64,000 nt of DNA from Sphaerolaimus hirsutus. Lineage: Eukaryota > Nematoda > Chromadorea > Monhysterida > Sphaerolaimidae. Positions within the stretch are counted from its first letter, which is position 1; each line of letters begins with the position of its first letter. Position numbers and translations under genes: made by a program. Shown in pieces: positions 1-63,865 of this stretch. The notes under the pieces were generated by a model. The model had not been told where the DNA came from. It worked only from the letters and a program-made list of their open reading frames with translations, and made no database searches. The stretch covers positions 13,767,504 through 13,831,503 of the forward strand of contig OZ038460.1 of NCBI GenBank assembly GCA_964036195.1. The letters run 5' to 3'.

Positions 1-3000
1 CTCCGGGGTGTGCAGCGTCGTTCGGACAGCGTGGTGGGCAGCGGGTCGCGCTCGCGCAACGAGAGCAGTGTGGCGGGGACGGGCGCGCCGGTGGCTAACG
101 CCCAGGTGCCAGTCCTGGACCCTGTAAAATGCCCTGGAAGATGGGAAATGTCCTGCAAAGCGTCAAAAGTCATGTAAAATGCCCGATAAATTGACAAACG
201 TACGTTTGCCATTTTACCGGGCATTTTACATGATTTTTTGACGCTTTGCAGGACATTTTCCATCTTCCAAGGTATTTTACAGGGTCCGGGACTGCCCCCA
301 GGGCGCCTCGAAGCGGTCGGTGTTGCTCACTGCGTCGACCGAGGTCGCCGCTGAAGTGCAGCCGGATGGAGAATCGTTGACCGTTATGAATTTGAAGAAT
401 AAAAAGAATGAAAAGTCGAATAAGAGTAGGAACCAGGTTTGATTATTGGGGCGAGGAGTTTTGCCCTGTAAATTGTGTAGTTTTCAAGAGGGAAATTATT
501 TTTAGTGTAAAAATATAAGTTGGAAAAATTCGTCGCATATTCGTGGGCATTTGCGCAACATAACTTTTATTATTTATTATAACTTATTAATAAATTATTG
601 TAACTTTTATCCATCTAATTGAAGTCTCATGAGGTGGGTTATGAGGTGAGGGATAAACAATGCATGATTTTCAACGCAGGTTGTCAAGATGTTGGCAATA
701 ATCGCGTTCATTTTTGCTGTTTGTTGGCTTCCATATCGCGCCGTGGTGCTTTACAACTCGTTTGCTACAAATCCATTTTACTCGCCCAAGTTCGTTCGCG
801 GTAAATCTCTAACATTCGTACACTCAATTAGTGCCCTGGATGGTGCCGAGAAATGGTAAAACAATGCAAAGAAATACTTTTTGTAATTGTAAAAAAATTT
901 AGTAATTGGGAATAATTTTTGATTTCGTTGGACTCCAATATATGTATAGGCTTTTTGGAGGTTTATACGGCTATCTCGCTAACCGCCGAAGGGTCAAAAG
1001 CTGAAATTCCCCTGCCATGCCTCTTTCTTTTTCAGTTTCATAATGTTCGCCAAGCTGATGATATTCATCAATTGTTCAATCAACCCGGTGCTGTACAATT
1101 TGCTGTCGTCCAAGTTCCGCCTGGCGTTCAAGAGCATGTTCTGCGGTCGCAGCAGTTTGAGCTTCGACTCGAGATTTCACTCGCGCGCTTACAGTCGATA
1201 CGGTACGAATAACACATTTGTTTTGTAGTTACTGGAAAAAAACAAGGATACTTTTTATATACAAAAAATACTTTTTTAACGACCCCGTTTAAAACAAACT
1301 TTTTAAATAAAACAATTTCAAAAGATCTCAAAAATAATGAGAGTCAACAAATACATGTACTGTATATTTATTTGTTCCATGTTAAAAACGAATTTTTATG
1401 ATGAAAAACTATTATTTTTGGTTAATTATTCAGGTGGGTTACGGTAGGTTTGCATACTAAGTGTGGTGTCCGCCGAGTACATATATGTGAAATTGCACAT
1501 TGTTCTCTGCAGGCTCCGCCCTGTCCCACCACATGGGCGAGTCGCGCACGGGCGGCGGCTCGGGCAAGCGCGGCTGCTCCAGCACGGCGGTGAACGTAAA
1601 GAAAGTGTCCACCAACGCAGCCCTGGTTAGAACGACGCAGCAGAACAAGCGAGAGCCGGACTTGCCCGTGTTCGACGCCAGGCGACACGGGCCCGCGCAC
1701 AACAACGCGCACAAACGGTCGGTGTTATACGATTGCGTTGCGTGTGCAAAAAGAAACAAAAAAACGGGGCTCCGTCAGTGTGTGGGGCTCTCGCACCCTG
1801 TAAAGTGTAGTGTCGAGCGTCAACTGTCATTTAAAATAAGATTTTTTTACTGAACTTTGACAATTGAGAAATTGCATTATTTTTACATGACATCAAGCAC
1901 TTTACTTACAGGGTGCGGGACTGGCACCTGATGGGTTCATTTTTTCTGGGTTGTGTTTTAGAAAGAGTTAACCATAGGGTCGTTTCTGCTTTGGCAAACC
2001 CAAACCCATAATATAATTATGAAAATAAAAAAGCTTTTTCTGTAAAAACGTTGTGTTTTCCTTGCGCATGGCAGCTTTAATTTGTGTGTGCGCGTGTTTT
2101 TACATGCACATGTGATACCACTAATCCACTCCACTTAAGGCGGGCCGTTTAGCTGGTCTTTGGCAATGTGCCAAACATAACCCCAAAGGTTCCGCCCCAA
2201 CGCGGCCGGCGACTGGGCGGAGGAGCGCTCCCTGACGCCCATGCTGCAGCTGCGCGCCTCCCAGCACCGATCGTCGGTGGGCGCGCTTACGGTCGACTCG
2301 AATCGGTCGGCCGGCGGCGGCGAACTGCACGCCACCTCGCAGTACGAACTGCGCAGACTCGCTTTGGCTGGCGAGCGCGCTCATAATCAGAGCATGGGTG
2401 AGTGGTCGAGTTTGTGGATTTGTGCCTACCCTACACACGCTAGTTTTCACCTGACTTGGGTGGAAACTGATAATTTTTACAGATGTAAATTAATCATCAC
2501 GGTGGAATGATTAAAATTTTTTTTAATTTTAATTTTAATTATGAAAGTTTAAATTCGAAAATTTGAAAACTGAAACAAGTATAGCATACAATAAGAGTAT
2601 GCTGAATGTCGCCATTCACCCATTTTCACCCAAGTCACAGTGAAAACTAGTGTGTGTAGGGCCTTTATTTTGCATGGAGTGATAATCGGTTAGGTGATAT
2701 TTAGGCCTTGGCTGCCTAATTTTTTCAGTCAAACGCTTACAGATGATATCGAATCTTCAATGGTCAATTTGTGAGTTTTTTGTGTGCGCAGAACCCCGCC
2801 TTTCGGTACTTGTCACCCTTGTTAGCTTGTCGCATATCAGGGACGTACACAGGATTTTTGAGCGGGGGGGGGGCGGATTGTATACACAGTCCAGCGAACG
2901 GGGGGGGGGCGGCGCCCCCCCCTAAAATTTGTTCCTGTAGTAACGGAATGGGGCCATGGCGCCAGCGCCATGACCCTATTGGCGTTGGCGCCAACGCCAA

Positions 3001-5129: not shown

Positions 5130-5169
5130 AGCGGGTAAACATGAAAATGGAAAACTAATCAGAGACTGG

Positions 5170-14070: not shown

Positions 14071-14089
14071 AACCCCCCTTGGAGACCCC

Positions 14090-14726
14090 TGGGGCCAGAT
14101 TTAATACTCCCTACAGATTTGTAGGGTAGGGCGTACGCCCGACAGATTCTTTAAAGTTTAGCCGCATCGACGCACATGCACCGAGAGCAAGGCGGTTCGT
14201 AAAATACACGAAACCATCCTTTAAGGTTGCCGATATTGCAATATGACGTATATCACTTCGATTTTGGCCCGGAAATCACGATCTCGTCATTTCTTCGCCG
14301 TCTGCCAATTCGTTTTTTATTTTATTTTGTCGGGCGGGTTACTCGCATAATTCGCGCTTTTGTGTAGTCAGGTGGTCACTTTTTTAGTGTTCACTGCCTA
14401 CAACCGAAACCATGAGGGCAGCAACAAGAAAGAAATGCATGCACGAGCGTACAAAAGCGCGACTTATGCGAGTAACCCGCCCGACAAAATAAAATAAAAA
14501 ACGAATTGGCAGACGGCCAAGAAATGACGAAATCGTGATTTCCGGGCTAAAAATCGAAGCGATATACGTCATATTGCAATATCGGCGACCTTAAGGGATA
14601 GTTTCGTGTATTTTACGAACCGCTTTGCTCTCGGTGCATGTGCGTCGATGCGGTTGAACTTTAAAAAATCTATCGGGCGTACGCCCTACCCTACAAATCT
14701 GTAGGGAGTATTAAATCTGGCCCCTG
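14090..14726. repeat. Foldback element with about 277-bp arms
   Basis: The left arm begins GGGGCCAGATTTAATACTCC and the right arm ends GGAGTATTAAATCTGGCCCC. The arms run to about 14366 and from about 14450, around an 83-bp unique core. The match continues through GGGCGTACGCCC and CGATGCGGCT/AACCGCATCG. There is no coding capacity. Confidence 0.8.
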
Positions 14727-18287: not shown

Positions 18288-18462
18288 CTGGTGGCATTCC
18301 CGCCCCCTGTAAAGTGTCAATGTCATGCAAAGCATTTATGAATATGTAAAGAAAATTTATCACCAAAATTTTGGCATTTTGCATCACATTTGACAAATTT
18401 GTATGTAATTTTGCATCCATGCACCTTGCATGACACTTTACAGGGTGCGGGACCGCCCACAG
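18288..18462 (+). mobile_element. Family A element, intergenic
   Basis: Left GGTGGCATTCCCGCCCCCTG, right CAGGGTGCGGGACCGCCCAC, with GTAAAGTGTCA and its inverse inside. It is diverged relative to the intron-forming copies. Confidence 0.65.
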
Positions 18463-20473: not shown

Positions 20474-20655
20474 GGGGCAGTCCCAGAACCTGTAAAATGC
20501 CCTGTAAAATGTCAAATGTCATGCAAAGTGTCAAAAGTCACGTAAAATTCCCTGTAAAATGGCAACCGAGTTGCCATTTTGCAGGGCATTTTCCATGACT
20601 TTTGACGATTTGCATGACATTTTACAGGGTCTGGGATCGGCTCCTATTGGCACCC
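20474..20655 (-). mobile_element. Family A element just upstream of the Quaking/How start
   Basis: GGGGCAGTCCCAGAACCTGT at the left and ACAGGGTCTGGGATCGGCTCC at the right; the core is the hairpin TGCCATTTTGCAGGG-type repeat. It ends about 57 bp before the Quaking/How ATG, so it lies in the promoter or 5' leader. Confidence 0.75.
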
Positions 20656-23700: not shown

Positions 23701-26194
23701 GAGGCGAACCGCGGCAAGCCGAACTGGGAGCACTTGAACGACGAGCTGCACGTGTTGATCCAGTGCGAGGACACGCCCAACCGGGCCGTGGTCAAGTTGA
23801 AGCGCGCCGCCGACGAGGTTCACAAGCTGCTCGTGCCCGCCGTGAGTTCTAGCCTTGCGCGCGGCCGGCCGTTTTTCTGGCGATGGAATAATATTCGATT
23901 TGAAATGTTCGATATTTTTATCAATAATGTCAATCAAGTCAATGGCGTCCCACACACCAGTTGTCAACCGGTTTGTGTCGACTCAAATTTCGGCTTCACG
24001 TGTCGCAGAGCAATCTTCCAATGCACTTGCCGTAATGTTTATTTTTCAACATTGCCGCACTGTGCATTTGGATATCGCTTTGCGTCACGTGCAGTCACGT
24101 GAGCTGAAATCTGGAGTTGACACAGATCAGTTGACACACGTGTGTCAACTAGTGTGCGGCCCGCCAATATGGAAAATCTGGTTGATACTCGCTATTCGTT
24201 GTTATGAACATAGTATCCGAACCTTATTGCTACGGTCAAAAATTTATGCGAACCCTGAGCACTACCACTCAGCCCGAAGGAGAGGACGAGTTGAAACGCA
24301 AGCAGCTTATGGAGTTGGCCATCATCAACGGCACGTTCAGACCGCCGTCGCAGGCGGCTGCCGCGGCGCAAAAAGCCGCCGCTGCGCAGATCCTTTCTGC
24401 CGCCGGCCTGACTGGCAGATCACAAATTGGCGCCCCTCTTATACTGAGCCCCCAGAGACAGACGCAAATGGTTGGTCACCTTGCTTGTTTCTGTTTTCCT
24501 TTGCATGGTCCATTGGTGCTTCACGCACTAGTTTACTAACGGCAAACTATGAATTTTGTCAACTCATTTGTCAGCTTCTGAGCGCATCTGAGTTTACCGG
24601 AACGAGCTGTTCGTCAATTACAGTTGACGGACATTGAAAATAACACCTTCCGGTAAACTCATGCACCCGAAAGCTGCAAAATGAGTTTACCAAATCCTTA
24701 ATTTACCGTTAGTAAACTAATTATATATATAAAAAAACACTCATGCTTTTGCATCCCGCAGGGTGTGAGCGCAGCCAGCGGTCTGCAGGGCATGGGCAAC
24801 ATGAACGGGTTGACAGCGGCCCAGCTCCAGGCGTTCGCCTCCAATCCGATGAACAGTTCGTTCCGCTCAAACATTTTTCGTCGTAAATATCCACCTCACG
24901 GATAGAGTTCAAACGGGATTGACTTTTCAGAATGGGGATCGTAATTGTTTGTTTTTTAGATTTCGAGATCGGGGTCGGGATTGACCTTTCGGTATCGGGA
25001 TCGGGATTAGTTTTTTTGAGATTTCGGGATCGGGATTGAGGTTTCGGATTCCCGATCGGGACAACAAAATCCCGAAAAAAAATTTCGGGAATCGGGATCC
25101 AGTTTAAATTCTACTCACGGACCAGTTCAAAAACCTCAACCCTCCTCAACAGTGTTCAACGGGGCGGGCCTGTCGCCGAGCGTGCTGCAGGCGCTGGGCA
25201 TGTCGCAGTCGGCCGCCACGCCGGCCACGTCGATGGCCCAAGCCCAGGCCCAAGCTCAGGCGCAGGCTCAAGCGCAGGCGCAGGCGCAAGCTTCCTATGC
25301 GGCGAGCATGGCCAACCCGCTGGCGGGCATTGATTTTGGCGCCCTGCAGAATAGCGCCTTGTTGTTTAAGTCTGTTTTATTTGGTCACTTTTTTGTTGTT
25401 TTTGTGTCGATTTCGCAGGTTGAGAAGTAAAATGAGGACCAAACAGGATAAAATACAAGAATTTTTTTTGCTTTAACTTTAACTTCTCATTTCTAAATTT
25501 ACTTTTCCTTTTTAATTTTTACTTAAATTTTAACTTGGCTTTTCAATCTTTACTTCTCACTTCTAAATTGCTTATTTTACTGCTCAACATGCGGAATTGA
25601 CCCCATGGCAAAGTGGTGTCATAATTTTAAATACCAGCTCCATTGTGTTAACCTGAAATCTCTCGCTCAGCTCTGGTCTGGGACTGGACCCGAACGCGTT
25701 CATGGCAACCAACAGTTTGGTCGGCCTGCCTGCTGGCTTCCAGCCGGGCGATTACACGGGCACCATGGAACTAAGCCAGGCTGGTGCGTGACCAACACCC
25801 GCGATTGGCGCCACTCCTAGACACTGTAAAATGTAAAATGTCAGGCAAATTGTCAAAAGTCATGTAAAACGCCCTGTAAAATGCCAAATTGTCATCTTCC
25901 AGCGCATATAACATGAGTTTTGACACTTGACTCTGATCTTTGGGATTTTACAGGCTCTAGGAGTGCCCCCTGGTGCAGTCCGACTAGTGATGTAAAAGCG
26001 CCGTGGCGCTGGCGCCTGGCGCTAACGCCAAAGCAAAAAGCAATCTTCTGGCGCTTTTCACATCACTTAGTCCGACTCTAAATGTCACGCTTGCGTGCTA
26101 AATATCCGATTGCCTTGTCGCAGGTGCGATGGGGCAGCAGCGACGGGTGCAAACGCGCGACCACCCATACGCGCGCCCCTCGGCCGCCTCCTGA
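20712..26194 (+). CDS. how: Quaking/How STAR-family RNA-binding protein (complete, 427 aa)
   Basis: Binds ACUAAY-type RNA to control splicing, stability and translation; a homologue of Drosophila How and vertebrate QKI. Exons: 20712-20916, 23076-23257, 23632-23841, 24273-24470, 24762-24855, 25153-25363, 25671-25783, 26124-26194; the sum is 428 codons including TGA. Residues about 38-80 form the QUA1 dimerisation segment ([17 protein letters not shown]). The KH domain follows, with [20 protein letters not shown] and the GPRG loop at 121-124; exon 3 continues it ([19 protein letters not shown]). QUA2 is exon 4 ([20 protein letters not shown]). Exon 6 encodes an Ala-Gln dipeptide run. The C-terminus, [12 protein letters not shown], resembles the QKI tail R-HPY. 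The exon 5 donor (GTTCGT) and the exact end of exon 6 (25360 or 25363) are less certain. Alternative last exons are usual in this family. Confidence 0.93.
21290..21735. repeat. Family C-like block in Quaking/How intron 1
   Basis: It begins TACCGTAAAAGCTCGATTAG and contains many ATTCCCCCT-type units up to about 21735. The right terminus is not clear. Confidence 0.45.
22653..22985 (+). mobile_element. hAT-like family F element, 3'-truncated
   Basis: It starts TAGGGATGGAAAAAAACG and shares with the 45783-46465 copy the internal ATACAGGTATA...CATAGAATGGCTGTG and, near its end, GGCTAAT...CAGTGATGTTTC. It stops there and lacks the CCATCCCTA end. Confidence 0.65.
23949..24165. repeat. Family J TIR element (GTTGACAC)
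   Basis: It holds CACACCAGTTGTCAACCGG..., GTTGACACAGATCAGTTGAC and CACGTGTGTCAACTAGTGTG. It matches copies at 49311-49518 and 61605-61802. It sits in Quaking/How intron 3. Confidence 0.55.
24530..24722. repeat. Family I TIR element (TAGTTTACTAACGG)
   Basis: Inverted ends around TAGTTTACTAACGG and CCGTTAGTAAACTA. The core includes GAGTTTACCGGAACGAG and its inverse. It is related to 28919-29105 and 38817-39005. Confidence 0.6.
24930..25095. repeat. CGGGATCGGGATT degenerate repeat
   Basis: An array of CGGGATCGGGATT-like units in Quaking/How intron 5. It ends with inverted CCCGATCGGGA and AATCCCGAAA motifs. A similar CGGGTATCGGG array lies in PIG-O intron 6. Confidence 0.55.
25410..25609 (+). 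mobile_element. Family B element in Quaking/How intron 6
   Basis: The left end is CGCAGGTTGAGAAGTAAAAT and the right end is CATGCGGAATTGACCCCATG; AACTTCTCATTTCT-like inverted segments lie between. It is diverged. Confidence 0.5.
25808..25973 (+). mobile_element. Family A element in the last Quaking/How intron
   Basis: Left GGCGCCACTCCTAGACACTG, right GGCTCTAGGAGTGCCCCC, with TGTCAAAAGTCATG and its inverse inside. It makes up about half of intron 25784-26123. Confidence 0.7.
25985..26068. mobile_element. hAT-like family G mini-element
   Basis: An 84-bp hairpin from TAGTGATGTAAAAGCGCC to GCGCTTTTCACATCACTT. It is flanked by the perfect 8-bp duplication AGTCCGAC (25977-25984, 26069-26076). It lies in the last Quaking/How intron, 55 bp before the final exon. 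Confidence 0.8.
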
Positions 26195-33890: not shown

Positions 33891-36800
33891 ATGGCCAGCG
33901 GCGCGGCCCTTCTTGCGTTCGTGTCGCTCAGCTGGTTTGCGGCGCTGTACTTCTATTGCCGCGGCTTCCTGCTGACGCGGACTGCGCTGTCCAGCCGCAG
34001 CCGGTGCTCCGATGTCCACCAGCAGTTGGGGGGCAACGCCACTGGTGCTGAATGTTGGTTGACGCCCAGGTACAATAGGACTATTTTGCTGCTCATCGAT
34101 GCTCTCAGGTGTGTGGATGTGTTTGCGTTCGGTCTGGCCGTTTCGTCGTGAAATCTGAGGCCAGTTCCGCAAATTGAGAAGTGACGTAAAATGGCAAAAG
34201 CTAAGTGAAATGAGAAGGAAATTGGCAAAATCGAAGGGAAATTACCTTTTATTTATTTTTACTTCGCTTTTGCCAATTTACTTGCCATTTCACTTCGCTT
34301 TTGCCAATTTACTTGTCATTCACCTCGCTTTTGCCAATTTTCTTCTCAATTCACTTCGAACTTGCCATTTTATTTCTCAATTTGCTTAACTGGCACCAGG
34401 TCTCTTATGGTCAACCAATTCAGTACCGTTTTTCAACAATGTCCGTATCAACGCGTAGCACCACCAGCTTTTACGCATCGCAGACACGACTTTGTCGAAT
34501 GGCAAGATCACGTGTCTCCAAACACCACTCTGCCACCCTACCTTAACCGAATGCGATGCGTGCGCGATTTGATGCAGTCCGAGCCGCGCAACTGCTTTCT
34601 GAGCGTGTTCACGGCCGACCCGCCCACCACGACGCTGCAGCGCCTCAAAGGCCTCACCACCGGCTCGTTGCCCACCTTCATCGACGCTGGATCAAATTTT
34701 GCAGGCGCCGAAGTGACTGAGGATAATTGGCTCGACCAGTTGACGAGTCGAGGCCGCAAGATTGTCTTCATGGGTTTGTGGCTTTCTCTGTAACATCGTT
34801 CAGGATCTTATCCTGTTTATTTCGAGGTGCTCTGTTTTCAAAGTTCACAAAATTTGATAAACTCTTGTGCTGCTGTTTAAAATGATGACAATAAAAATGG
34901 CTTCGGTAACATTTGATGCTATATCTAAAAAGTTGGAAGGTTTGTCACTTGTTTGTTCACGTGGTTTGACAGAAGTAAATAGGGATGGAATAGGTAAGAC
35001 TTCATTTTCAACGACGCTGTCTTTTTAAGAAATACGTTTTGGATACTTTTATCTTTTTTTAAACAGTGAAAAAAGACTCCTGCCGTGCCGTACCTAGACA
35101 GAATCACCATGGGGGCTGGCCCATTTAGGCCCCACATTGTGTGGCTTCTGCTTGCGGTTTAACATTTCGGAATATTTTCAGGCGACGACACGTGGACGTC
35201 GCTCTACCCCGGCCGCTTCGCCCGATCCTACCCGTTCCCCTCGTTCGACGTGCGCGACCTGCACACCGTGGACGAGGGCGTCCTGCGGCACGTATACGAC
35301 GAGCTGCGCGAGCGTGATTGGACCGTTTTGGTGGCGCACTTTCTTGGTGTTGATCACGCTGGACATAAGTATGGACCGGGGCACGTGGAGATGGGTAAGA
35401 AGTTGGATCAGATGAATAGTGTGATTCTGTGAGTGGAGCGTTGTTTATTGGGTTTTGTGTTTTTGTCCACCAGGCTTTAGCTTTCTGGCCTTGTTCAACT
35501 CAATGCACAATTTATCAAAGCGTTGTTTCTCAATGTATATCATGCGTTGGGATCGAACGGGGGTCAATTTATTATCCAAAATATACGTTTTTGTGTCAAT
35601 ATCGAAAACATTCTAAAAAGATCGAGTATTTAGGTCGAAAAGGGGTGTGTTGCAAGTTTGCAACCCTAATCATGCGTACGTTATTTTAAACCCAATATTT
35701 TTGTAAATTTTTGCCACCTGTCAGAAATATTACGCAACAAATGGACGAGTCGACGGTGCTGTTCGTGCTCGGCGACCACGGCATGACATCGACCGGCGAC
35801 CACGGCGGCGACAGCGACAACGAGCTGCGCGCGGCGCTGTTTGCCTATGCCAAGCCAGGCCGCCCGCTGCACGACAATTTTGGGGTGCGAGTTTTTTTTG
35901 TTCGCTTGGCTGACTTTTTTACAATGTTTTGTGAAGGGCTCATCGTTGTTATTGGATTTTTTGAGATCTGTCAAGGGCACCTCCAAGTATTCATGTTGAA
36001 TGCATAAAGGCAAGAGCTCGTTTTGGAGTACTTAGTCGTCTAATGGACACCTATATCCGCAGCCCGTGCTGCCGCCAGTGGCGCAGATAGATCTGGTTCC
36101 AACATTATCGCTTCTGCTCGACTCTCCTATACCGTTCAGCAGTCTGGGTTCATTGATTCCAAGCATGTTTCCGGGGGAGACCCTTAAAGCGGCCGCTGCC
36201 AGGGCCAATGTAGCACAGGTGAGCTTTTGTATTTAGTATTGTCTCTTGATGGTATGTTTGGCAGCGTGAGTTACGTAAAATGTCATTTTTGTGCTTTCTG
36301 GCTGTGTTAAAACAACTTTACAAATTTTTTCCTCTGTTGCTTGTGTAATTTGTGCAATTCTGGCATATTCATGAGTATATTCGTTTCAGGTGCTGCGCTA
36401 CGCCGAGGAATATACAGTGACCTTATCAAAAGCTGCCGCAGCAGGAGACTCTGGTGAGGTTCTCTCTTGCCCAAAGTAAATAATGTCACCTCCGGTAAGG
36501 TTGGAAATTAAAAAATATTGTTTTCGGGTATCGGTTCCAAAAAGTTCTAGTCGGGTATAGGTTCCAAAATATTTCGGGTATCGGGTTCAGGTTCAGGCAT
36601 TGACATCGGGTATCGGGTCGGGTTATGAGGTGAAATTGTCGGGTATCGTGTAATAAAGTTGTCGGGTATCGGGTAATAAAGTTGTCGGCTATTGGGTAAT
36701 AGAATTGTCTGGTATTGTTCAATAAAATTGTTCAGATATTGGTGTTGGGCTCCGATACCCGAGTCGGGTTCGGGTATCGGGTTTCGGTTCCAAAAATGTG

Positions 36801-39800: not shown

Positions 39801-42800
39801 TGTTCGGCGCGATGGAATTGCTCGCGCTCGCTGGACGAGGCGAGGCGGGAGAGGCTAGGTTCATTCTTTGGCCGGTCAGTGCGAGTTTGGTGCGATTTTT
39901 TGCGAGGGTGACGTGCTCTTGGCAGACACGCTGTTCATTTTTTTGAGAGAGAAAAAACTATTATTTTTGAAATTTCGGTCGAAAACTAGTGTGTGTAGGG
40001 CCAAAGAACCTCTGCAGGTGGCACTGCTCACTTTCAACAATCCTCAAGTTCATGCGTTACAAATCCACCGTAGAATAAGTGGTCACACCGTGACTTATAT
40101 ACGGTGACAGATACCGCGACTATAAAAACCGTCACACGTCACCACATACCGTGACAATGGACAATGACAGAAGACCACACAGTGCGCGTGCCTGTGGTCG
40201 CTGCTGTCGGCGCACGGCTTCTACGCGACCGGGCACGCGGCCGCCTTCGTGGCCATCCCGTGGCACGCGGCCTTCGTCGGCCTGCCGGGCAACTTCGACG
40301 TCCAAGCGGCGCCGGCCGCCCTGGTGCCAGTTCCGCAAATTGAGAAGTGAGAACTAAAATAGTAAATGCGAAGTAAATTGGCAGAAGCGAAGTGAAAAAA
40401 TAAAAGGTAATTTCTCTTCGCTTTTGCCATTTTACTTCTCAATGCACTTCGCGTTTGCCATTTTACTTCTCACTGTTCAATTTGCGGAACTGGCCCCTGG
40501 TCGCGTTGAATGTCTTCGCGGCGCACGTTGTGTGCGCGCTGGCGGTGCCGCTGCTCGTGGTGTGGCCCGTGTACCCGGACAAGGTGGGCAGACTGGCGTT
40601 GATGCCCGAGCAGGGCAGGGGGAACCGGCCAGTGCCTACTGAGTGGAACTTGTTGGCCGACAGAGAAAGCACTCTGCGTGCTGTATCCGTTGTGTCGCTT
40701 GCCTACTTGTCTGCGGCTGGCCTCAAGGTAGGCCATTTTTTATAGTGATGGGTTCTATATTCATTTACGGTATTTCCTCGAATTGACTCCCCTCGAAATA
40801 CCCCTGGGTCTGATCGACCTGAGGAAAAAATGCCCCCCTCGAATTACCCCCGTCTCTAATTATGTAAATACATCATGTATGCAATGTACATTATGTATTA
40901 ATGGCTTCCTAATTGCATATCATTCTCAGCTACACATTTAAAATATTTTGTGTAGATATCCTCTAGATATAGATCCCTCTATATTAGGGTTGGCCGATGT
41001 TTTTTTTAAAACATGACGTCCGAAATGTACATTCGACTATAAGGCGATATACCTACGAACATGTCGACAAAAAATGGATATTTTTGGCACAAATCACCAC
41101 TTATAATGCTATCCCATGGCTCCACAGCCATTCTGTGTCTATATATAGCATCACAAAGTAGTCACCATCATCATTATATGGTCATATATAACATCACAGA
41201 GTATTGCCACTGTCTTATATACCTATATATGTTGACACAAGGTCATATCTGGGAGCTTTTAAAAAAAAACAACGTTTTTATTTTTTTAAATGTTTTTTTT
41301 TATTTAAAAAACATCGGATTAAAAACAACGTTTTTTTTCCAACCCTACTCTATATGTCCAAATATATTGTGTGAAGTCTCATTTATTACTGGTTATGGGT
41401 AGGGATGGCCGGTGTTTTTTAACTGTTTTTTTATATTAAAAAAAACGTTTTTTTAATTGAAAAAACAGAGGCATCGAAACCGTTTTTTTTTAAACATCAG
41501 CAAAAAATTTTTTGTACTATGTACTAGGTATTCTGCATTTTTTTTGCGCGCAAGCGCGCAATTTCACATTCACTTTACCATTTGTGATTGTTTTCATTGG
41601 TTTTGTAGCATTTTTAGTGTGAAAGTTTCCATTTGTTCATGCTATTGTGTCATAATAAGCCGTGATATGTTAGTGTAGCATATAATATCCAGCCAATGTG
41701 CTCCCACATACTTCTACAGTGTGATCCATCATTGTCAATGGATTAGCCTTATATTATAACCTTGTATAAGTGCTATTCCATGCAAAACTTGACTTGAAGT
41801 CATGAACATTCGACAAAAGGTGATATACGTAACAACTAGATCAAAAATGGATATATTTGACAGAAATTACCACTTATAATGCTATCCCGTGGCTCCACAG
41901 CCATTCTGTGGCTATATATAACATCACAAAGTACTGGAAATGATTTGATATACCTGTATATGTTGACCCATAACCAAGGACGTAGCCAGGGGGGGGCGGG
42001 GGGGGCGGCCGCCCCCCCCCCTTCCCGGGTCGGACAAGAAAATATACCCGAAATGGTGCTTCCGGTAAAGCGATTTTGTCGCCAGTCCCGAAAAATTTTG
42101 CGCGCAAGCGCGCATTTCGGCGCCGCACAGTATATTTTATTTATACATGTGGTTTAGGACCAAAAAAGCACTGACAATTCGCCCCCGTCGCTGTATATGT
42201 ATGTAAAATACATACAAGTACAGCACTATTTGGCGCCAATGCCAACGCCAATGGCGCCATGGCGTCGCGCTTACGAATGGCGCTGGCGCCAAGGCGCCAT
42301 TCCTTTACCACAGGGGTCAAATTTAGGGGGGGGGGCGCCGCCCCCCCCGTTCGTCGAGCTCCGTATACAATCCGCCCCCCCCCGCTCAAAAATCCTGGCT
42401 ACGTCCCTGCCCATAACCATATCTGGGAGCTTTAAAAAACCCGTTTCAAATTTTTAAAAAAACAACTTTTTTAAATAAAAAACAGGGTCTTTAAAAAAAC
42501 GTTTTTTGGCCATCCCTAGTTATGGCTATGTTTTGCCCTATTCTACGATCCTTCACGAAATTTTCTGACGAAATAATAACCCCCCTTTGAATAAGCCCCT
42601 TCTATCTAATTACCCCCTCCCTCAAAATTTGCCTGCGAATTAATGACCCCCTGGGTGTAATTCCAGGAAATACGGTAACTGTTGCTTTTCCACCTATCAC
42701 AATCTATTCCCGCTCGATTACCGCAGCTCATGGCGACGACGGGCGCGTGCGCTCTGCACCGGCGGCACCTGATGCTGTGGAAAATATTCGCGCCCAAGTT

Positions 42801-43359: not shown

Positions 43360-44834
43360 ATAAACAGGGTGCACGCCAGGTCCGCCACCCAAATTCTGAG
43401 TCTGTGCCGGACGCCATATCTCCAGTTGTTGTGGGGGAATTTATTCGAAATTTTGAGGGCATCTACTCGAAACCCACCCACTACTATTTACGGGCTGGGG
43501 AAGGTCGGCGACCCACCTGAGTGTGGGTCGCTGTACAAATGAATAGTTTTTTTTGAAAAAATCGCTGTACACGCGAGGTCCGCCACCCGTTGTTTTTTTG
43601 ATATAACGGGCTGCCAAACTAAAACTGTTGGGGGGAATTGATCGAAATTTTGAGGGGGCGTACACGACACCCCCCACTACTTTTCACGGTAGGTTGAGCC
43701 CCCTGGCGACCCCCCTGAGAGTGGATCGCTGGAAAATAATATGATAATTTTGAGAATTCGCTGTCCAGGTTTGGCACTGGACAGCAAAAATAAAAATTAC
43801 ATTAGAATGTCCCTTGGAGGACAATGTATACCACTGTAAAAAGTGTGTATTCAAAAAGCAAATTTTAAATAAAGATTTGATCTGGTTCAAAAGTGTATTT
43901 GACACCCATACACAAGTTCCAGATTAAATTTCGATTTAAGTCAAATCTTTAATACACACTTTTGAAGCTGGTTTACAATGCCTTATAGGAGATGATTTAA
44001 GGTAACAATTCGCGTAAACAACATTACCCCAAAAATCAACCATAGAGGAGATTTGATGGGGGTCAACACAAAAGCTGTCCCACAAGGCAAATTTTGTTCC
44101 TGGAATGATGTCATCGATGACATCATTACAGTGACCCCATCAAATCTCCTCCATGGTTGATTTTTGGGGCAATGTTGTTTACGCGAATTTTTACCTTAAA
44201 TCATCTCCTAGAAGGCATCGTAAACCAGCTTTAAAAGTGTGTATTAAGGATTTGACTTAAATCGAAATTTAATCTGGAACTTGTGTATGGGTGTCAAATA
44301 CACTTTCATACCAGATCAAATTTTCATTTTAAAATTTGCTTTTTGAATACACACTTTTCACAGTGGTATACATTGTCCTCCAAGGGACATTCTAATGTAA
44401 TTTTTATTTTTGCTGTCCAGTGCTAAACCTGGACAGCGAATTCTCAAAAATATCATTTTATTTTCCAGTGGTCCACTCTCAGGGGGGCGCCAGGGGGCTC
44501 AACCTTCCGTGAAAAGAAGTGGTGGGTGTCGTGTACACCCCCTCAAAATTTCGATCTATTCCCGCCAACAGTTTTAGTTTGGCAGCTTGTTATATCAAAA
44601 AAACAACGGGTGTGGTCCTCGCGTGGACAGCTATTTTTTCTAAAAAACTATTCATTTATATGGCGACCCACACTCAGGTGGTTCGCCGACCTTCCCCAGC
44701 CCGTATATAGTAGTGGATGGGTTTCGAGTATATGCCCTCAAAATTTCGAATAAATCCCCCCACTACAACTGGAGATATGGCGTCCGGCACCGACTCAGAA
44801 TTTGAGTGGCGGACCTGGCGTGCACCCTGTTTAT
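43360..44834. repeat. 1.47-kb near-perfect palindrome (foldback)
   Basis: The left arm begins ATAAACAGGGTGCACGCCAG; the right arm ends CTGGCGTGCACCCTGTTTAT. The arms (about 730 bp each) remain alignable throughout, for example CGGACGCCATATCTCCAGTT with its inverse, and meet at the exact palindrome GATGTCATCGATGACATC (44107-44124) with essentially no spacer. Small indels and substitutions distinguish the arms. No ORF of note. Confidence 0.9.
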
Positions 44835-45142: not shown

Positions 45143-48100
45143 ATGGGCTCGGAATATGTTTTGTGTGCTTTGTTGATTCTTTTGAATCCAGATTTTGTGT
45201 GGTCTGTCAAAAAAGTGACGATCTCTGAGAAAGATGACCTACATCTACCATGTGGAAAAGAACAGGCTGTATCCAATGTGAAGCGGTCGATTTTCTCGCA
45301 GCGTGTGACACCGCACAGCTATCCATGGATGGTTTGTTTTCGTCTGGCACCAGTTCCTCATCCTGTCGATTGTCGTCACACAGGTTTCAATTCCTGTTGT
45401 ATTGCCAGATAGGTAACCTGTTTGCCGAATAAATCCCCCTCAAATAACTCTAACTTGCAGTTAAAGGTATCTTCATTAGGTTCCAGTCACGCACCCTGTA
45501 AGATGTGAAATTCGTAGTAATACTTTCGTTTAATTTTACTGGAAATTTGACATTTTACAAGGTGCGGGGCTAGCCTCAGCGTGTTGGGTTTGCTCTGCCA
45601 AGTTCAGTTAAATTGATAGGTGGGCGGTGGGGCCGCACATAAACATTTAATCGTCTTTCATCATTTTAATCATCGTTTAATAATGTCATTTTCACGGTCT
45701 GGTTTTCAGTATAATATATAGCAGCTTCACCACATCAATTTTGACGCGTAAACTCGCTCGGCTCGCTGGGGGCAGTCCCAAGTAGGGATGGAAAAAAGCG
45801 CTTTTTTAACGGCCCCGTTTTTTTTTTAAAAAGCGCTTTTGATAAAAAAACGCGCTTTTTTCGCTTTTTTTCAAAAAATGTCAAGACGTTACCTAAAAAG
45901 CTCCCAAATATGGTCCTGAGTCAATATATACAGGTATATCAGACAAGTGGCAGTACTTGTGATGATATATAGCCATAGAATGGCTGTGTAATCATCTGAT
46001 AGCATTATAAGTGCTGATTTCTGCCAAAAAAATCCAAAATTATGTTGACTCATGATGTATATCGCCGTTTTTGAATGTTCCTTGACTGCAAGTGATGTAA
46101 GGCATGGAATAGTGCTTAAATTTGGCTATAAAAGCAGGCTAATACATGACAGTGATGTTTCACACTGTAGAAAAGTCTAAGCACATTGGCTGGATATTAT
46201 TTACTACACTGACATATCTCCTCAACTTATTATTACTAGAAGCAATGCCACTAAAATGCTACAAAACCAATGAAAACAACCACCAATGGCAATTTGCATG
46301 TGCTTGCTGGCGCGCAAAAAAATTGCAAAATACCTAGTGCATGAGTACAAAAATTTTTGCCAGCGCTTTTTGTTAAAAAAAAGTGCTGGGAGCCTTGCGC
46401 TTTTTTTTAGAAAAAAGCGGCGTTTTTTTTAAAAAAAGCGCTTAAAAAAGCGCTTGCCATCCCTAGTCCCAAGCCCTGTAAAGTGTAAAGCAATGTGTCA
46501 AATGTGATGTAAAATGTCAAATAGGACAAAAAAGCATGACAATATATTTTTGAACTTTGCATGACAATCGACAATTTATTTTACATTTGTCATGACAATT
46601 GACACTCCATGACATTTTACGGGGATGTACCGGCCGTAAAGTAGAGGGTGCTACTTCAGGCCGGGCATAATTACGGCAGAGTTGTTAAAAGTACTGAACT
46701 TTTTTAAAAGTAAACGTAAACGTAAAGTATTTTATTTTTAGTCACACCTGAGTACAGAAAACGTAAATTAAAAATTTTCTACTTTTACGCTGTGTAAAAG
46801 GTGAGTAAACTTTAATATCTGTAAATACTCAGTACGGAATTTTTCGATTGTCTACCTAATCAAATGTAAAAATGAGTATAGGTGAAAGCGAGTGTCGTCG
46901 CTATCCCTATCCATCGCTAATTCTATCATTTCCGCTGTTATTTTACGCTATTTTTTCAGCCGTTTATATTCGTGTGAGTGATTTTTGCTTTTTATGCACT
47001 CAAAAAATGTTCTCAATCACGTTTTCTGTACTCGCGTACCTTCAAAAAGTACGCGAGTAAGTGAGTACCGGTATTTTTTCGGGAGGAAACGTAAACGTAT
47101 TTACGCAGCACTCGAGTATACGTATTTATCGAGTAAACGTAAATACTTTTGCACAACTATGCATTGCGGCCGGGTTTACTTTACGGCCGAGTTCTCGCCA
47201 CATTTTACATGACATTTGACACTCGTCTTCACACTTAACGGGATCTGGGATTGGGCCCTGATTCGCGACCGACTGGTAGTGCGAATTTATGCTAACCCCT
47301 TGTCCGTGCGACACACCCAGGCGAAGCTGCACGCGGCGGGCGAGCACTGGTGCGGCGGGGCAGTCATCTCGCCCAACTGGGTGCTCACCGCGGCGCACTG
47401 CATCCCTGAGGGCAAGTCGGCGCTCCGTTCGCTCACCGTCTACCTGGTGCCAGTCCCAGACTCTGTAAAAGACTGTGTTAAGTGTAAAAGACCCTGTGAA
47501 ATGTTATGTGTGATGTGAAAGACCCTGTAAAGTGTCACATGTCATGTAAATGACTCTGTAAAGTGTCATGTAAATATATCCAAATCTTATCCAAATCATG
47601 TTTTTGTATCCAAATCTTGAGTCCGAGAGTACAAAAACAAGGATTCCGATACGATACAATAAGATTTGGATACACATGACACTTTACAGGGTTTCTTTAT
47701 ATGACACCTGACATTTTACAGGGTTTTTACATGACACATGACATGTTACAGAGTTTTATACACTTTACAAGGTCGTTTTCCGGGTCTGGGACTGCCCCCG
47801 GGGCAACGACCGCGGCAAGTACGAGTTCAAGTCGGATGTCGCTCGCGCCATCCCCCACCCCGAGTACTGCGAACACTGCGAGCCGTACAGCGGCTATGAT
47901 ATCGCCCTGGTGCGCCTGTCCCGGCCGGTCGAGTTCAGCCAGTGTGTTAGATTAGTGATGGAAAAAGTGCGAGAACTTTGGCGCCAAGCGCCAGAACAAA
48001 ATGGCGCCAAGCGCCAGAAGCGCCATGGCGTTTTTTGCTTTGGCGCTAGCACTAATCGCCAGCGCCAGGCATTTTGTTCCTGGCGCCACAGCAAAATAGC

Positions 48101-50034
48101 GCCAATAGTGCCATGGCGGTTTTTGCTTTGGCGCTATCGCTAGGCGCCAGCGCCAGGGCGCTTTTCCATCACTATGTTATATGATTGTTAATGTTCGATT
48201 TTAATGCACCGATTATTGGAAATTAAAATGCAGGAAGATCTGGCCGATCTGCCTGCCGACTGCGAAAGATGACTTCCGAAAAGGGGGAATGAAAGTCGTA
48301 GTTGCCGGTATGGTGAAACTTCGTGGCAGTGCTTCTATGTATAACCATATTTTCTTAAATAATTTTCATCTCCCTCAGTAAGTCCTTCACTCGAACAATC
48401 CCCCCCCCTGTTAGACAAGTGAGCAAAAATAATTTCCCCAGTTGAATAATCCCACCCCCAATGATGGAAGAAAGATGATCGACATACCGTATTTCCTCGA
48501 ATTAACCCCCGGGGGGTATATTTTTTCAGAGTGAAAATTTTGAGAGAGAAACGTGAAAAATGCAACAATAACCACCATTTATAAGTTTTTACAGCCTTAT
48601 ATAAGGATGTAGATGGTATAAACGATGTTCTAACGTAACACAGTAAGTGTTTTGAACGTCTGTTATGCATTTCCCGGACCACAAATTCATAGTGTCCATT
48701 TTGAGGGGGGTATTTCGAGGAAATACGGTATCTAAAAACAACCAATGAAGACAGACAAAGCAGAAGGACTGTTCCTGGTTTGATTCATCAAATGCAAATG
48801 CAGCAGATCTGTGTGCAAAAGTGCAATGGAATGTGCACACCAACGGAAGCGGGGCATAATGTGTAAATATATAGTGTGATACATTGAAATATTTGATGAA
48901 ATAATAATCCCCCCATATGAATAATTCCACCCTGAATATTCCCCCCTCAAAAAGGTCTGATGAAAAGATACGTACCTAATTCCCGGGGGGAATTTTTTCG
49001 AGTAAATACGATATTCACACACATTCACACAGGCTGGGGCCAGCACAAGCCTCTGAACACTGAAGGGTATTATGGCGATTACTATGATGACGAGTCGGCG
49101 GAGATGCCGGACACGATGCACTTTAAGCTGTTGACCACGACGGAGTGTCCAGCTGACGAGGTTGACATCAACAACAAGACGGACATGTGCGCTGGCGCGA
49201 TGCTCGGAGATGCCTGCCAGGTTTGGATGTAATGTGATTGGAGTGCCTAGTGGCTTTTGGGGCGCTGTCCGAGGGCGGGGGCGGCTAGCATTTCGACCGC
49301 ATTTATTGGTGGCTCACACACTAGTTGACACATGTGTGTCAATCGGTCTGTGTCAACTCAGATTTCGACTTAACATGTCGCAGCGCGATCTTCCAATCCA
49401 CTTGCAGTAATGATTATTTTTCAACATTGCCGATTAGAGATTCCCCTGCAACATGTGAAGCCGAAGTCTGAGTTGACATGGACCAGTTGACACACATGTG
49501 TCAACTATTGTGCGGGCCGCCATTGAAAGCGATTCTATCGGCAAGACTTTTGTCTAGTGCGCGGTGATGTAGCTATAGTGGCACTCGCAGTCGCACTTCA
49601 CGAAACCCTGCCCTAGCTTGTTGCCGTTCCACTGCATTCTCGCCCATCATTCTACGCAGGGCGACAGCGGTGGTCCGCTGTTCTTCCAGCGCGATGCCGA
49701 CGGCAAGTTCGTGCAGGCAGGTGCCAATCCCAGACCCTGTAAAAAGCCCTGTAAAATGTCAAATGTCATGCAAAGTGTCAAAAGTCATGGAAAATGCCCT
49801 GCAAAATGGCAACTCGGTTGCCATTTTGCAGGGCATTTTCCATGACTTTAGACACTTTGCATGACATTTGACATTTTACAGGGCTTTTTACAGGGTCTGG
49901 GAGTGCCCCCAGGTCTGGTAGCTTTCGGTGCCGATTGCGTTTGGGGACGCTACCACAGCGTGGGCACGTACACGCACGTGCCCACGTTCATTCATTGGAT
50001 CGGTGCGACCATGCAGCAGAACGGTGGACCTTGA
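45143..50034 (+). CDS. Secreted trypsin-like serine protease (S1 family), complete, 299 aa
   Basis: A chymotrypsin-fold endopeptidase, probably extracellular. Exons: 45143-45331, 47321-47446, 47802-47941, 48234-48307, 49033-49220, 49660-49720, 49913-50034 (900 nt). The N-terminus is a signal peptide (YVLCALLILLNPDFVWS), then a short Cys-containing propeptide (LPCGKE) and SYPWM at the start of the fold. The catalytic triad is His89 in LTAAHC, Asp138 in GYDIALVRL and Ser242 in GDSGGPL. Asp236, six residues before the serine, predicts cleavage after Arg/Lys. Other core motifs are present: CGGAVISPNWV, WPICLP, VAGWG, MCAG. The usual IVGG activation site is not seen; the matching region is RSIFSQRVTPHSYPWM. 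Introns 2 and 6 are family A elements; at intron 2 an alternative acceptor at 47771 would add ten residues. The family is certain, the physiological substrate unknown. Confidence 0.93.
45478..45576 (+). mobile_element. Family A element, short copy
   Basis: GGTTCCAGTCACGCACCCTG to ACAAGGTGCGGGGCTAG in protease intron 1; only about 100 bp. Confidence 0.6.
45768..46636 (-). mobile_element. Family A element split by a family F insertion
   Basis: GGGGGCAGTCCCAAG at 45768 continues, after the family F element, as CCCTGTAAAGTGTAAAG at 46474. The other end is near ATTTTACGGGGATGTACC. Removing 45783-46465 and one copy of the duplication restores a normal family A end. Confidence 0.7.
45783..46465. 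mobile_element. hAT-like family F MITE
   Basis: TAGGGATGGAAAAAAGCG to GCCATCCCTA with the perfect 8-bp duplication GTCCCAAG (45775-45782, 46466-46473). It has AAAAAGCGCTTTTT stems and inserted into a family A element. Confidence 0.88.
46678..47160. repeat. Family E long inverted repeat in protease intron 1
   Basis: It starts CAGAGTTGTTAAAAGTACTG, ends TAAATACTTTTGCACAACTA, and is GTAAACGTAAACG-rich. Confidence 0.65.
47203..47262 (-). mobile_element. Family A fragment
   Basis: ACATGACATTTGACACTCG followed by the end-like GGGATCTGGGATTGGGCC. Only one end is present, 58 bp before protease exon 2. Confidence 0.45.
47447..47801 (+). mobile_element. Introner-like family A element forming a whole protease intron
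   Basis: It starts GTGCCAGTCCCAGACTCTG directly after TACCTG and ends GGTCTGGGACTGCCCCCGG directly before GGCAACGAC. The inside holds several tandem GACCCTGTAAAGTG units, longer than in other copies, and a short GTATCCAAATCTT pair. Splicing at the protein-predicted boundary would need GT...GG. Confidence 0.8.
47953..48174. mobile_element. hAT-like family G element beside a protease donor site
   Basis: TAGTGATGGAAAAAG to CTTTTCCATCACTA with near-identical 8-bp flanks TGTTAGAT and TGTTATAT. It is filled with TGGCGCC palindromes. It starts 11 bp after exon 3, and its left duplication overlaps the donor region GTGTGTTAG. Confidence 0.8.
48344..49013. repeat. Family C block, including a full copy at 48485-48730
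   Basis: The inner copy runs TACCGTATTTCCTCGAATTA to TATTTCGAGGAAATACGGTA. The flanks (AATCCCCCCC, GAATATTCCCCCC, AGTAAATACGATA) look like a second, outer copy into which it inserted. This lies in protease intron 4. Confidence 0.65.
49311..49518. repeat. Family J TIR element
   Basis: CACACTAGTTGACACATGTG to CACATGTGTCAACTATTGTG in protease intron 5, near-perfect ends. Confidence 0.7.
49721..49912 (+). mobile_element. Introner-like family A element forming a whole protease intron
   Basis: GTGCCAATCCCAGACCCTG to CAGGGTCTGGGAGTGCCCCCAG. Exon 6 ends GTGCAGGCAG and exon 7 starts GTCTGGTAG; removal gives an in-frame Gly and the expected sequence VQAGLVAFGADC. Nearly the whole 192 bp is a hairpin (AAATGGCAACTCGG / CGGTTGCCATTT at the loop). 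Confidence 0.9.
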
Positions 50035-50416
50035 TCCATTTTGACTAGTGTCTTTGAAGCTGCTTGCTGATTCAAATTGATTTAATGTAAAGAAGGAAAA
50101 AGGTGTTTTTTTGCTCTGTGATGTCTATTATACATGGATTCCTGGTCTGGGGCCAATTCCGCAAAAAGTGACGTGAAAAAAGAAGTGGAAAATAGGAAGA
50201 GAAGAGCGAAGTAAAAAAGAAGTGAAAAAAGAAGTGGAAAAAGAAGTGAAAAAAGAAGTGAAAAAAGAAGTGGTAAAACAAGTGGAAAAACAAGTGGAAA
50301 AACAATTGGAAAATAAATATAAATAAATAATAAATAAAAACGCAAAGGATGAATTCGGACTTAAAAAGCATTGTTTCTGACGGTGGTAGTGATGATTTAG
50401 TTGGAAACAAGCCGAT

Positions 50417-50846
50417 TACCGAATATCCTCGAATAAGACCCCCCCTCGAATAACTCCTCCCCCTTGAATAACTCCCCCCTCAAAAACTCTGACGAAAAAA
50501 TAACTCCCTCCCTTGAATGACCCCCCCCCCCTTTGAAAAACTCCTCCTCTGGGCGGAAAATACGCTACATATTTTACAAAAATTATCGATGAAAATACAA
50601 AATAATGTTGACGTATGGCAGCGACAGCAGATACATAGCATGTACACAGTGCATACACAGCTTTTTGTTGTTGTTAGCTGGATTACATGAGTTGACATAA
50701 TGCATTCATACAATGAATTTAGTCCATATTTTCTGAGGAAAAAATAACTCCCTCCCTTGAATAACTCCTCCCCCTTGAATAACTCCCCCTCAAAAACTCT
50801 GACGAAAAAATTACTCCCCTGGGGTCTTATTCGAGGATATACGGTA
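50417..50846. repeat. Family C element
   Basis: TACCGAATATCCTCGAATAA to TTATTCGAGGATATACGGTA, with AATAACTCCCCCCT units. It is nested in the 50147-51436 family B element and closely related to 63345-63778. Confidence 0.75.
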
Positions 50847-50982
50847 TTTGCTTGCGTCGGAACTTTCAAATTGAAAATCTTACCCAATTCAAAAGAAGCT
50901 TCCGCCTAAATCCAACTTCGTTTCCCACTTCTTTTTTCACTTCTTTTTCACTCCTTTTTGCACTTCTTCTTTCGGGGCAGGC

Positions 50983-51339
50983 CTGATACGCACATCTGCC
51001 CGTTACGCACATTTGCCCGTTTTTTTCACTTGACACTTTTTAAGTGATTTTCAGATATGAGTGAAGTGAAAAACGCTGCGCAATGACATTAGTGAACTTT
51101 TTTCACTTCACTCATACTTGATAATGTGTCAAGTGAAAAAGAGTGAAAAATAGCCATTTTTCATTGTTTTTTTCACTTGACACATTTTCAAGTGATTTTC
51201 AGATATGGGTGAAGTGAAAAAAGTTCACTAATGTCATTGCGCAGCGTTTTTCACTTCCATCATATCTGAAAATCACTTGAAAAAGTGTCAAGTGAAAAAA
51301 AACGGGCAAATGTGCGTAACGGGCAGATGTGCGTATCAG
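50983..51339. repeat. Palindrome M (CTGATACGCACATC ends)
   Basis: CTGATACGCACATCTGCCCG at the left and its inverse at the right; an internal TTTTCACTTGACAC is repeated several times in both orientations. It is nested in a family B element. Confidence 0.75.
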
Positions 51340-51827
51340 TGCACCCCCTTCTTTTTCCACGTCGTTTTTCACTTCTCTTTCCACTTCGTTTTCCACTTCT
51401 TTTTTCACTTCACTTTTTGCGGAATTGGCCCCTGGTTTAATCTGCGTGATATTTATAAAATAAAAACTTTTTCGGTTGTTATTACAAACCACAGTTCACC
51501 CATTCAAGTGATCACCCTTTCACACATTCAGAAAACATAACTCGATTGGTCTCAGATAACTCATCTGTATTTAGCAAGTTTGGAATTTATTGATGCTCTG
51601 CTACGCAAAAAACAACAACAATGAACACTAGAAACATTTGAAATCTTTTTCGTCATATTCCTCGTTATTTGCGAACAAATATCCAGATGTTTAGTAATGG
51701 AAACGGTCATGCTCCTCACGTTTGGCAGAAATTTTTGGCGTCTAAAAAGCCACGCACCAGCACTGTCAATGTCTATGTAGGTAGATGAACCTATTCAGCT
51801 GCACTATGGTGCCCCCCCCCCCCGATC

Positions 51828-51962
51828 AGCCAGGGACCGCTCCCAGACACTCTAAAATGCCCGTAAAATGACATCCAAAGTGTAAAAGTGAATTTTACAC
51901 GCATTTTACACGACATTTGACATTTTGCAGGCTCTTTTACAGTCTTTGGCAGTGGCACCTGG
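51828..51962 (-). mobile_element. Family A element, intergenic
   Basis: GGACCGCTCCCAGACACTCT to GTCTTTGGCAGTGGCACC. It is directly followed by GGGGCCATTTCCG, a lone family B-like end at about 51961. Confidence 0.6.
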
Positions 51963-55148: not shown

Positions 55149-62730
<7,582 letters not shown>

Positions 62731-63177: not shown

Positions 63178-63344
63178 TTTACATGAAAAGTATAGTACGC
63201 GCGTCGTTGCTCAAGGAAATACACATCCAAGAACTTTGTTCATCTGCGGAACCTACATAGAATGCGAATATTTGTGATAGATAAAAACTGATGTAGGCAC
63301 GCCAAATGCCAGGTATATGTAAATCTGACAAACAATAAATAGTA

Positions 63345-63778
63345 TACCGTGTATCCTCTAATAAGTCCCCAGGGGGGTTATTTTTTGTCAGAGTTTTTGA
63401 GGGGGGAGTTTTTCAGAGGGTGTGTTTTTTTCCCACAGAAAGCTTGAAATTAATTCATTCTATGAATGAATTCTGTCAACTCGTGAAATCCATGTATTTA
63501 ACAGTTCAACAACAACAGCAAAAAGGTGTGTATACACTGCGTACATGTTATGTATCTGCTTCCGCTGCCATACATAGATATTCTTTTGTATTTTCATCGA
63601 TCGTTTTTGTAAATTTTGTAGCATATTTTTCACCCAGAGGGGGGAGTTATTCGAGGGGGGAGAGTTATTCGAGGCGGGAGAGTTATTCGAGGGGAGTTAG
63701 ATTTTCGTCCGAGCTTGTGAGGGGCGTTATATAAGGGGGGATTTATTCGAGGGGGTCTTATTCCGAGGATATACGGTA
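63345..63778. repeat. Family C element
   Basis: TACCGTGTATCCTCTAATAA to TTATTCCGAGGATATACGGTA. The interior AGAGTTATTCGAGG units and CAACAACAACAGCAAAAAGG match the 50417-50846 copy in reverse orientation. Confidence 0.75.
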
Positions 63779-63865
63779 CTTCCCCCCACGACACGTCTGG
63801 ACCTTAGGCAGATATCAACGGTATTTTCACCTCATGTTCTCCCAACCCCCCTGCTCCTATCGCAG

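Follow-up and report, generated by a model that had tools for sequence, protein, structure and literature searches.

A foldback element coincides with a predicted intron of a serine protease gene that may take its 3′ splice site from a CWG duplication

Results

A hairpin element in the last predicted intron of a protease gene

The window analysed here, meaning the whole 64-kb stretch of DNA, contains a gene for a trypsin-like serine protease. Its seven joined exons form a single open frame of 300 residues from 45191, and the start likely lies 16 codons above, at 45143. The model matches the Trypsin family in Pfam (PF00089, E 3.4e-41). The gene and the element in its last intron, called copy h, are laid out as follows.

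45143..50034, + strand: trypsin-like serine protease gene, seven coding exons modelled by hand
45143-45341 (putative start codon), 47280-47446, 47802-47941 and 48234-48307, + strand: exons 1-4
49033-49220, 49660-49720 and 49913-50034, + strand: exons 5-7
49721..49912, + strand: predicted GT...CAG intron, 192 nt, phase 1, the last in the gene
49721..49909, + strand: copy h, hairpin element, 189 bp
49718..49720, + strand: left target-site duplication CAG of copy h, the end of the upstream exon
49910..49912, + strand: right target-site duplication CAG of copy h, the predicted 3′ splice site
5′ terminal repeat of copy h, with the donor GT: GTGCCAATCCCAG
3′ terminal repeat of copy h, as reverse complement: GGGGCACTCCCAG

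Copy h carries an inverted repeat (49720-49813 and 49817-49910), whose 94-nt arms are about 95-96% complementary and enclose a 3-nt loop. Folded as RNA, positions 49711-49922 reach -168.8 kcal/mol, compared with an average of -60.3 for shuffled sequences (z -23). A first-pass annotation of this DNA had described a 192-bp element running from GTGCCA to CAG; its hairpin and its exact placement as an intron both hold, but the element proper is 189 bp long (49721-49909) and the final CAG is part of the duplication. The intron falls between the first and second bases of a glycine codon; this residue had been numbered Gly260, and it is in fact codon 261 of the partial model, or 277 when counted from the likely ATG at 45143.

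Within the protease gene, copy h is not accompanied by any further intron sequence. Reading through 49721-49912 meets an in-frame TGA at 49843, and the joined frame, ...GDSGGPLFFQRDADGKFVQA-G-LVAFGADCVWGRY..., is open across the junction. The three PDB alignments listed, all to activated protein C chains, are gap-free at this junction (FVQAG/LVAFG) and also at that of a second copy in the same gene, copy g (LTVYL/GNDRG). GT-AG pairs that keep the frame are not rare (26 of the 80 tried for copy h), and what favours the exact pair over the other frame-keeping ones is homology and symmetry. Splicing at the exact ends of copy h is strongly predicted, and the element with its duplication looks very much like the set of signals that would be needed to splice out a new intron.

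The remaining four protease introns, as modelled, start with GT and end with AG. A different hairpin (49298-49531, with 94-nt arms that are 81% complementary) lies within the intron 49221-49659; flanked on either side by normal intron sequence, it represents a plain insertion into an intron that was already present. By eye, the intron 47942-48233 holds another hairpin-like array, rich in GGCGCC and with ends like TAGTGATGGAAAAAG, which begins a few bases past the donor and has similar motifs elsewhere in the window. Repeated C/G-run motifs like CCTCGAATAACTCCCCC were likewise seen by eye at 48500-48730, 50427-50830 and 63339-63780.

Related copies are dispersed through the window

BLAST detects 11 loci of the CTGTAAA family in the 64-kb window, with the nested pieces of copy f counted once, and a scan for ends adds degenerate copies at 45480 and 1927. 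The resulting 13 CTGTAAA-family loci bear out the earlier count of at least 13. Four two-ended elements (c, d, i and m) share the common termini and have other interiors. The 64 kb hold 14 two-ended copies plus further ends; besides copy h, these are the following, with left and right flanking triplets.

106..301, + strand: copy a, element 106-298 and right CAG 299-301; predicted GT...CAG intron
18291..18459, + strand: copy b, degenerate; CTG/CAG
25808..25969, + strand: copy o, just past the presumed stop codon of a STAR/KH RNA-binding gene; TTG/CTG
34158..34396, - strand: copy c, antisense in the first modelled intron of a PIGO-like gene; CTG/CAG
40324..40499, + strand: copy d, in the PIGO-like gene, element 40324-40496; CTG on both sides
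45480..45576, + strand: copy e, degenerate, in protease intron 1; TAG/CAG
45769..47257, no strand assigned: copy f, 1489 bp, with later nested insertions, in protease intron 1; CTG/CTG
47447..47801, + strand: copy g, in the same protease gene as copy h, element 47447-47798; left CTG, right CGG
50150..51431, no strand assigned: copy i, 1282 bp, identical GGGCCAATTCCGC ends on both sides; CTG/CTG
51834..51958, - strand: copy j, degenerate; CAG/CTG
58134..58288, - strand: copy k, with its GT end on the minus strand, at a site without a recognised gene
61083..61210, - strand: copy l, degenerate, directly upstream of a phosphatase exon; AAG/CTG
62176..62446, + strand: copy m, within a larger predicted intron (62063-62498) of a tyrosine phosphatase gene; CAG on both sides
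20474..20653, - strand: a further copy upstream of the STAR/KH gene start, outside the 14-copy counts; flanks CTT and CCC, not CWG

Copies outside coding sequence, which the first pass had also reported, are found within older introns whose normal sequence surrounds them (c, e, f and m), beside genes, and where no gene is recognised (b, i, j and k). Copies c and l are antisense to their genes. Copy m was considered as a third CAG intron and rejected, as the phosphatase frame joins MVQTL to EQYAML via the larger predicted intron that contains it. An acceptor, CTGGGGCAG, within the inverted end of copy l (61195-61215) may serve the phosphatase exon that starts near 61207.

The combination of differing interiors (CTGTAAA and GCAA types) with similar ends would fit several short elements served by one transposase. 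Pfam found no transposase in copy i, and neither a DDE transposase nor a Myb/SANT protein appeared in 40 Pfam queries (33 window stretches; the window has 143 open frames of at least 90 codons). Searches for related copies returned none for 22-base and 25-base patterns in a genome contig collection and none for a 19-base end pattern in a viral contig collection. A 15-base pattern hit 42 viral contig stretches, which we treated as chance, the best 20 BLAST matches spanning only 17-28 bases; the strongest stretch, L029, lacks a comparable hairpin and has its match within an open reading frame.

Among other features of the window, an 805-codon open frame at 5113-7530 with an RVT_1 match (E 6.6e-30) and a sub-threshold endonuclease match is a LINE-type retrotransposon. 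The longest inverted repeats among the matches listed (25 of 56 pairs) lie at 43853-44343 and 14085-14730; their arms, of 209 nt and 181 nt respectively, are 92-94% complementary, and the copy h element matched neither in BLAST. A tRNA scan of the window gave no hits.

Most element ends are flanked by CWG

CAG or CTG (CWG) flanks the 14 two-ended copies at 23 of 28 ends (left 11/14, right 12/14), compared with a background of 2.9%; the associated binomial p of 5e-31 is nominal, the copies having been picked by eye. The five other flanks read TAG, AAG, TTG, CGG and CTA. Half of the six ends left out of this count also have CWG (1927 CTG, 51962 CTG, 62889 CAG), the other three reading CTT (20474), CCC (20653) and CTC (31055), which brings the figure for all ends together to 26 of 34. 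CWG was found at other offsets in 0 of 28 cases, a weak control because CWG at one offset rules out CWG at neighbouring offsets.

Left and right flanks are identical in six of the 14 copies (a, d, f, h, i and m). Nine copies have CWG at both flanks, and the middle base agrees in six of them, where 4.5 would be expected by chance if A and T were equal. Since that level of agreement is unsurprising alone, the case for a duplication is carried mainly by the six matching pairs, together with the coding sequence that excision restores. Three copies (18291-18459, 34158-34396 and 51834-51958) carry CTG at one flank and CAG at the opposite one, perhaps through decay or some other process. A 2-bp duplication (AG or WG) was considered and dropped: a 3-bp CWG equalises the lengths of both terminal repeats.

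The longest copies, f and i, have GG at both ends. Ten of the other 12 have GT at one end, with GG opposite in seven of these. The donor thus belongs to the family as a whole and is not confined to the copies in exons. The GG terminus was probably ancestral to GT.

Three further copies lie in exons

Copy a has the same layout as copy h and provides a second canonical GT-AG case. Its excision joins ...GAPVANAQ to GASKRSV... near the 3′ end of a gene; the protein around it has no match in a Pfam search. Placed by its open frame only, copy a is predicted with moderate confidence to be spliced at its exact ends.

Exact excision of copy g yields LTVYL-GNDRG, but as GT...GG, and that of copy d yields PAAL-VALNVF, but as GT...TG. 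Having no AG at the restoring position, these two copies would therefore need TG or GG splicing or a cryptic AG. The required frame is kept by 37 of 196 GT-AG pairs tried for copy g and by 3 of 59 for copy d. All three pairs for copy d share one AG within the element, which in combination with the element donor would add 31 residues; for copy g, the nearest cryptic AG choices from the element donor would add 10 residues or remove 6. That the AG is supplied by the CWG duplication and not by the element, and that two exonic copies sit on CTG without an AG, goes beyond the first-pass account.

The gene holding copy d, at 33.9-40.7 kb, is taken to be PIGO-like from a Phosphodiest match in its front part (E 5.2e-10) and by comparison with human PIGO; the rear part, in which copy d lies, has no match in Pfam, PDB or NCBIfam.

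When the element and one triplet are deleted, the numbers of open codons before and after the site are 35/46 for copy a, 52/81 for d, 78/113 for g and 47/40 for h (flanks of at most 450 bases, with copy a cut by the window start), and reading through meets an in-frame stop in all four. An open frame alone is weak evidence, because the same deletion also leaves open codons on the + strand at the non-exonic copies b (30/77), c (31/131), k (54/60) and o (93/36). Support beyond the frame comes from homology for h and g and from the presumed PIGO orthologue for d; copy a has neither. At each of the four exonic sites, the GT end faces the upstream side of the gene; this number is too small for a test, and at copy a the strand of the gene is judged from the open frame.

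Copies d and g could instead be gene-breaking or allele-specific insertions, leaving the CAG copies as the only introners. We regard this as unlikely, although with a real chance of being correct, as neither has an AG where exact removal restores the protein. Both, however, interrupt otherwise open frames of recognisable genes, and in-frame cryptic AGs are present in each. Their arms are 75% and 72% alike, compared with about 95% in copy h, which may mean long residence, if the arms were not already different at the start. Also, in 36 human genes TG has been verified by experiment as an alternative 3′ splice site, according to the accessible text of PMC2374985.

Discussion

Origin of the intron

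The intron at 49721-49912 was, very probably, made by a non-autonomous DNA transposon (a foldback MITE) that inserted into a protease exon at CAG. The hairpin, its termini, the CWG flanks, the exact placement, the restored frame and the homology are direct observations. The transposase, probably akin to those of the NuwaI type (PHIS), would cut and duplicate CWG (CAG or CTG). With a CAG target, the left copy would remain as the exon end and the right copy would become the last three bases of the intron, while a change from a presumed ancestral GGGCC to GTGCC in the left terminal repeat would make the exon end CAG|GT and so carry the donor. With the donor in the left repeat and the acceptor in the right CAG, the spliceosome could therefore excise the element together with that CAG, and the original coding sequence would be restored exactly. 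From sequence alone, we infer that the intron is spliced and that it was gained recently.

The first-pass reading of an introner is supported by the terminal inverted repeats, by the target-site duplication, by the copies that lie outside genes and by the one copy that equals an exact predicted intron; introners are a known kind, to which the hairpin element very probably belongs.

An alternative history has the element entering a protease intron that already existed, the match to the splice sites being coincidental or the old intron sequence having been lost later. Copies c, e, f and m of the same families do occupy older introns, and other repeats lie in protease introns (the hairpin in 49221-49659 and the array in 47942-48233), but such insertions keep ordinary intron sequence on both sides, of which copies h and a have none. 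Copies h and a also share the CAG duplication at their borders and have the donor at the first base of the element, and minus the element and one CAG the site reads as open coding sequence, all of which makes a pre-existing intron improbable.

We give even less credence to the hairpin being a structured non-coding RNA or a regulatory dsRNA locus in the protease gene; the RNA hairpin would be very stable, but it follows from near whole-length inverted repeats that are common to the dispersed copies, and no Rfam family matches anywhere in the window at gathering scores. Copying of introns via RNA by reverse splicing, proposed for intron families of this kind in fungi (PMC9860276, in its accessible part), is hardly credible for elements with terminal inverted repeats, CWG flanks and reverse-orientation copies, with long versions (f and i) that have GG, not GT, at both ends, and with copies that are not coextensive with introns but lie in older introns, beside genes or where no gene is recognised.

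Implications

How new introns originate is an old question. If insertion of a CWG-targeting DNA transposon is the right explanation, the target preference of an animal transposon lineage itself supplies one splice site, and intron gain therefore follows from transposase cutting. The genes with STAR_dimer/KH, trypsin and Y_phosphatase domains suggest an animal host. Among the matches listed in our search of the literature (a body without preprints and with few subscription papers), none linked CWG-targeting transposons or NuwaI to introners.

A bolder proposal, which we consider doubtful, is that CWG transposons are natural intron makers whose CTG half is also spliced, as GT-TG or GT-GG, possibly with help from the hairpin. 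If this were true, half of the CWG targets (CAG) would be ready 3′ splice sites and one base change in the terminal repeat would provide the donor, the hairpin might assist CTG splicing by bringing both ends together, and conserved genes would carry non-AG introns made in a single transposon step. The CAG and CTG copies, lying side by side, offer a natural test of how well splicing copes when the AG is missing.

Comparison with known systems

A 2019 study of introns in Fritillaria, cited in PMC13326754, and later work on introners and horizontal transfer reportedly belong to the same field.

In the accessible part of PMC9860276, introners are described in which one splice site is carried by the element and the other is taken from the duplication, and where a family makes duplications, these provide one splice site or both. 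Like the family in our window, they are DNA elements of the non-autonomous type, and many of them have terminal repeats and duplications; the mRNA usually stays unchanged, as is predicted here. The examples given there come from protists, algae and a fungus and have 4-bp, 8-bp or no duplications, whereas here a 3-bp CWG duplication would give the 3′ site, in an animal-like genome. The Chrysochromulina introner, which carries the 5′ site, has 4-bp duplications without inverted repeats (PMC9860276, same part). Among animals and land plants, that part of the source places introners in only two groups.

The closest transposon comparison is with NuwaI, a member of the PHIS superfamily, related to PIF/Harbinger, which the portion of PMC4482050 available to us describes with 5′-CWG-3′ duplications and repeats usually starting GGG, and there in animals only. 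Our family shares the CWG duplications, and its presumed unmodified ends may correspond to the GGG start. NuwaI elements that are autonomous have a mean length of about 4.5 kb, and most code for a DDE transposase together with a Myb/SANT protein (same portion of PMC4482050); here, in contrast, only short elements were seen, one end is usually GT, and inverted repeats extend up to nearly the whole element. Terminal repeats of 12-61 bp are given for 23 NuwaI families in that text, compared with the 94-nt arms of copy h, in which the foldback blurs where the repeat ends. With no transposase found in the stretches queried and the copy h arms beyond the reported NuwaI range, we would call the family NuwaI-like only. 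The flanks are CWG, not the TWA duplication that defines PIF/Harbinger in the strict sense in the same source.

Introner elements of the dinoflagellate Amoebophrya, as far as the accessible text of PMC7789003 goes, are similarly hairpin-forming introns with direct repeats at exon boundaries and commonly non-canonical ends. Their direct repeats differ from those here in being 3-5 nt long and of variable composition, and most of the non-canonical introns are AG-A(N).

Recent intron gains in an animal are also known from the copepod Eurytemora affinis, where the AG that closes the exon ahead of the donor is obligate; our CAG copies likewise have an AG there (PMC5714493). Its idiosyncratic introns have GA or GG donors and no transposon is named for them (PMC5714493), whereas the donor here is GT. 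Our model makes a prediction for Eurytemora, namely that an unmodified GGG repeat after CAG would yield the reported GG donors.
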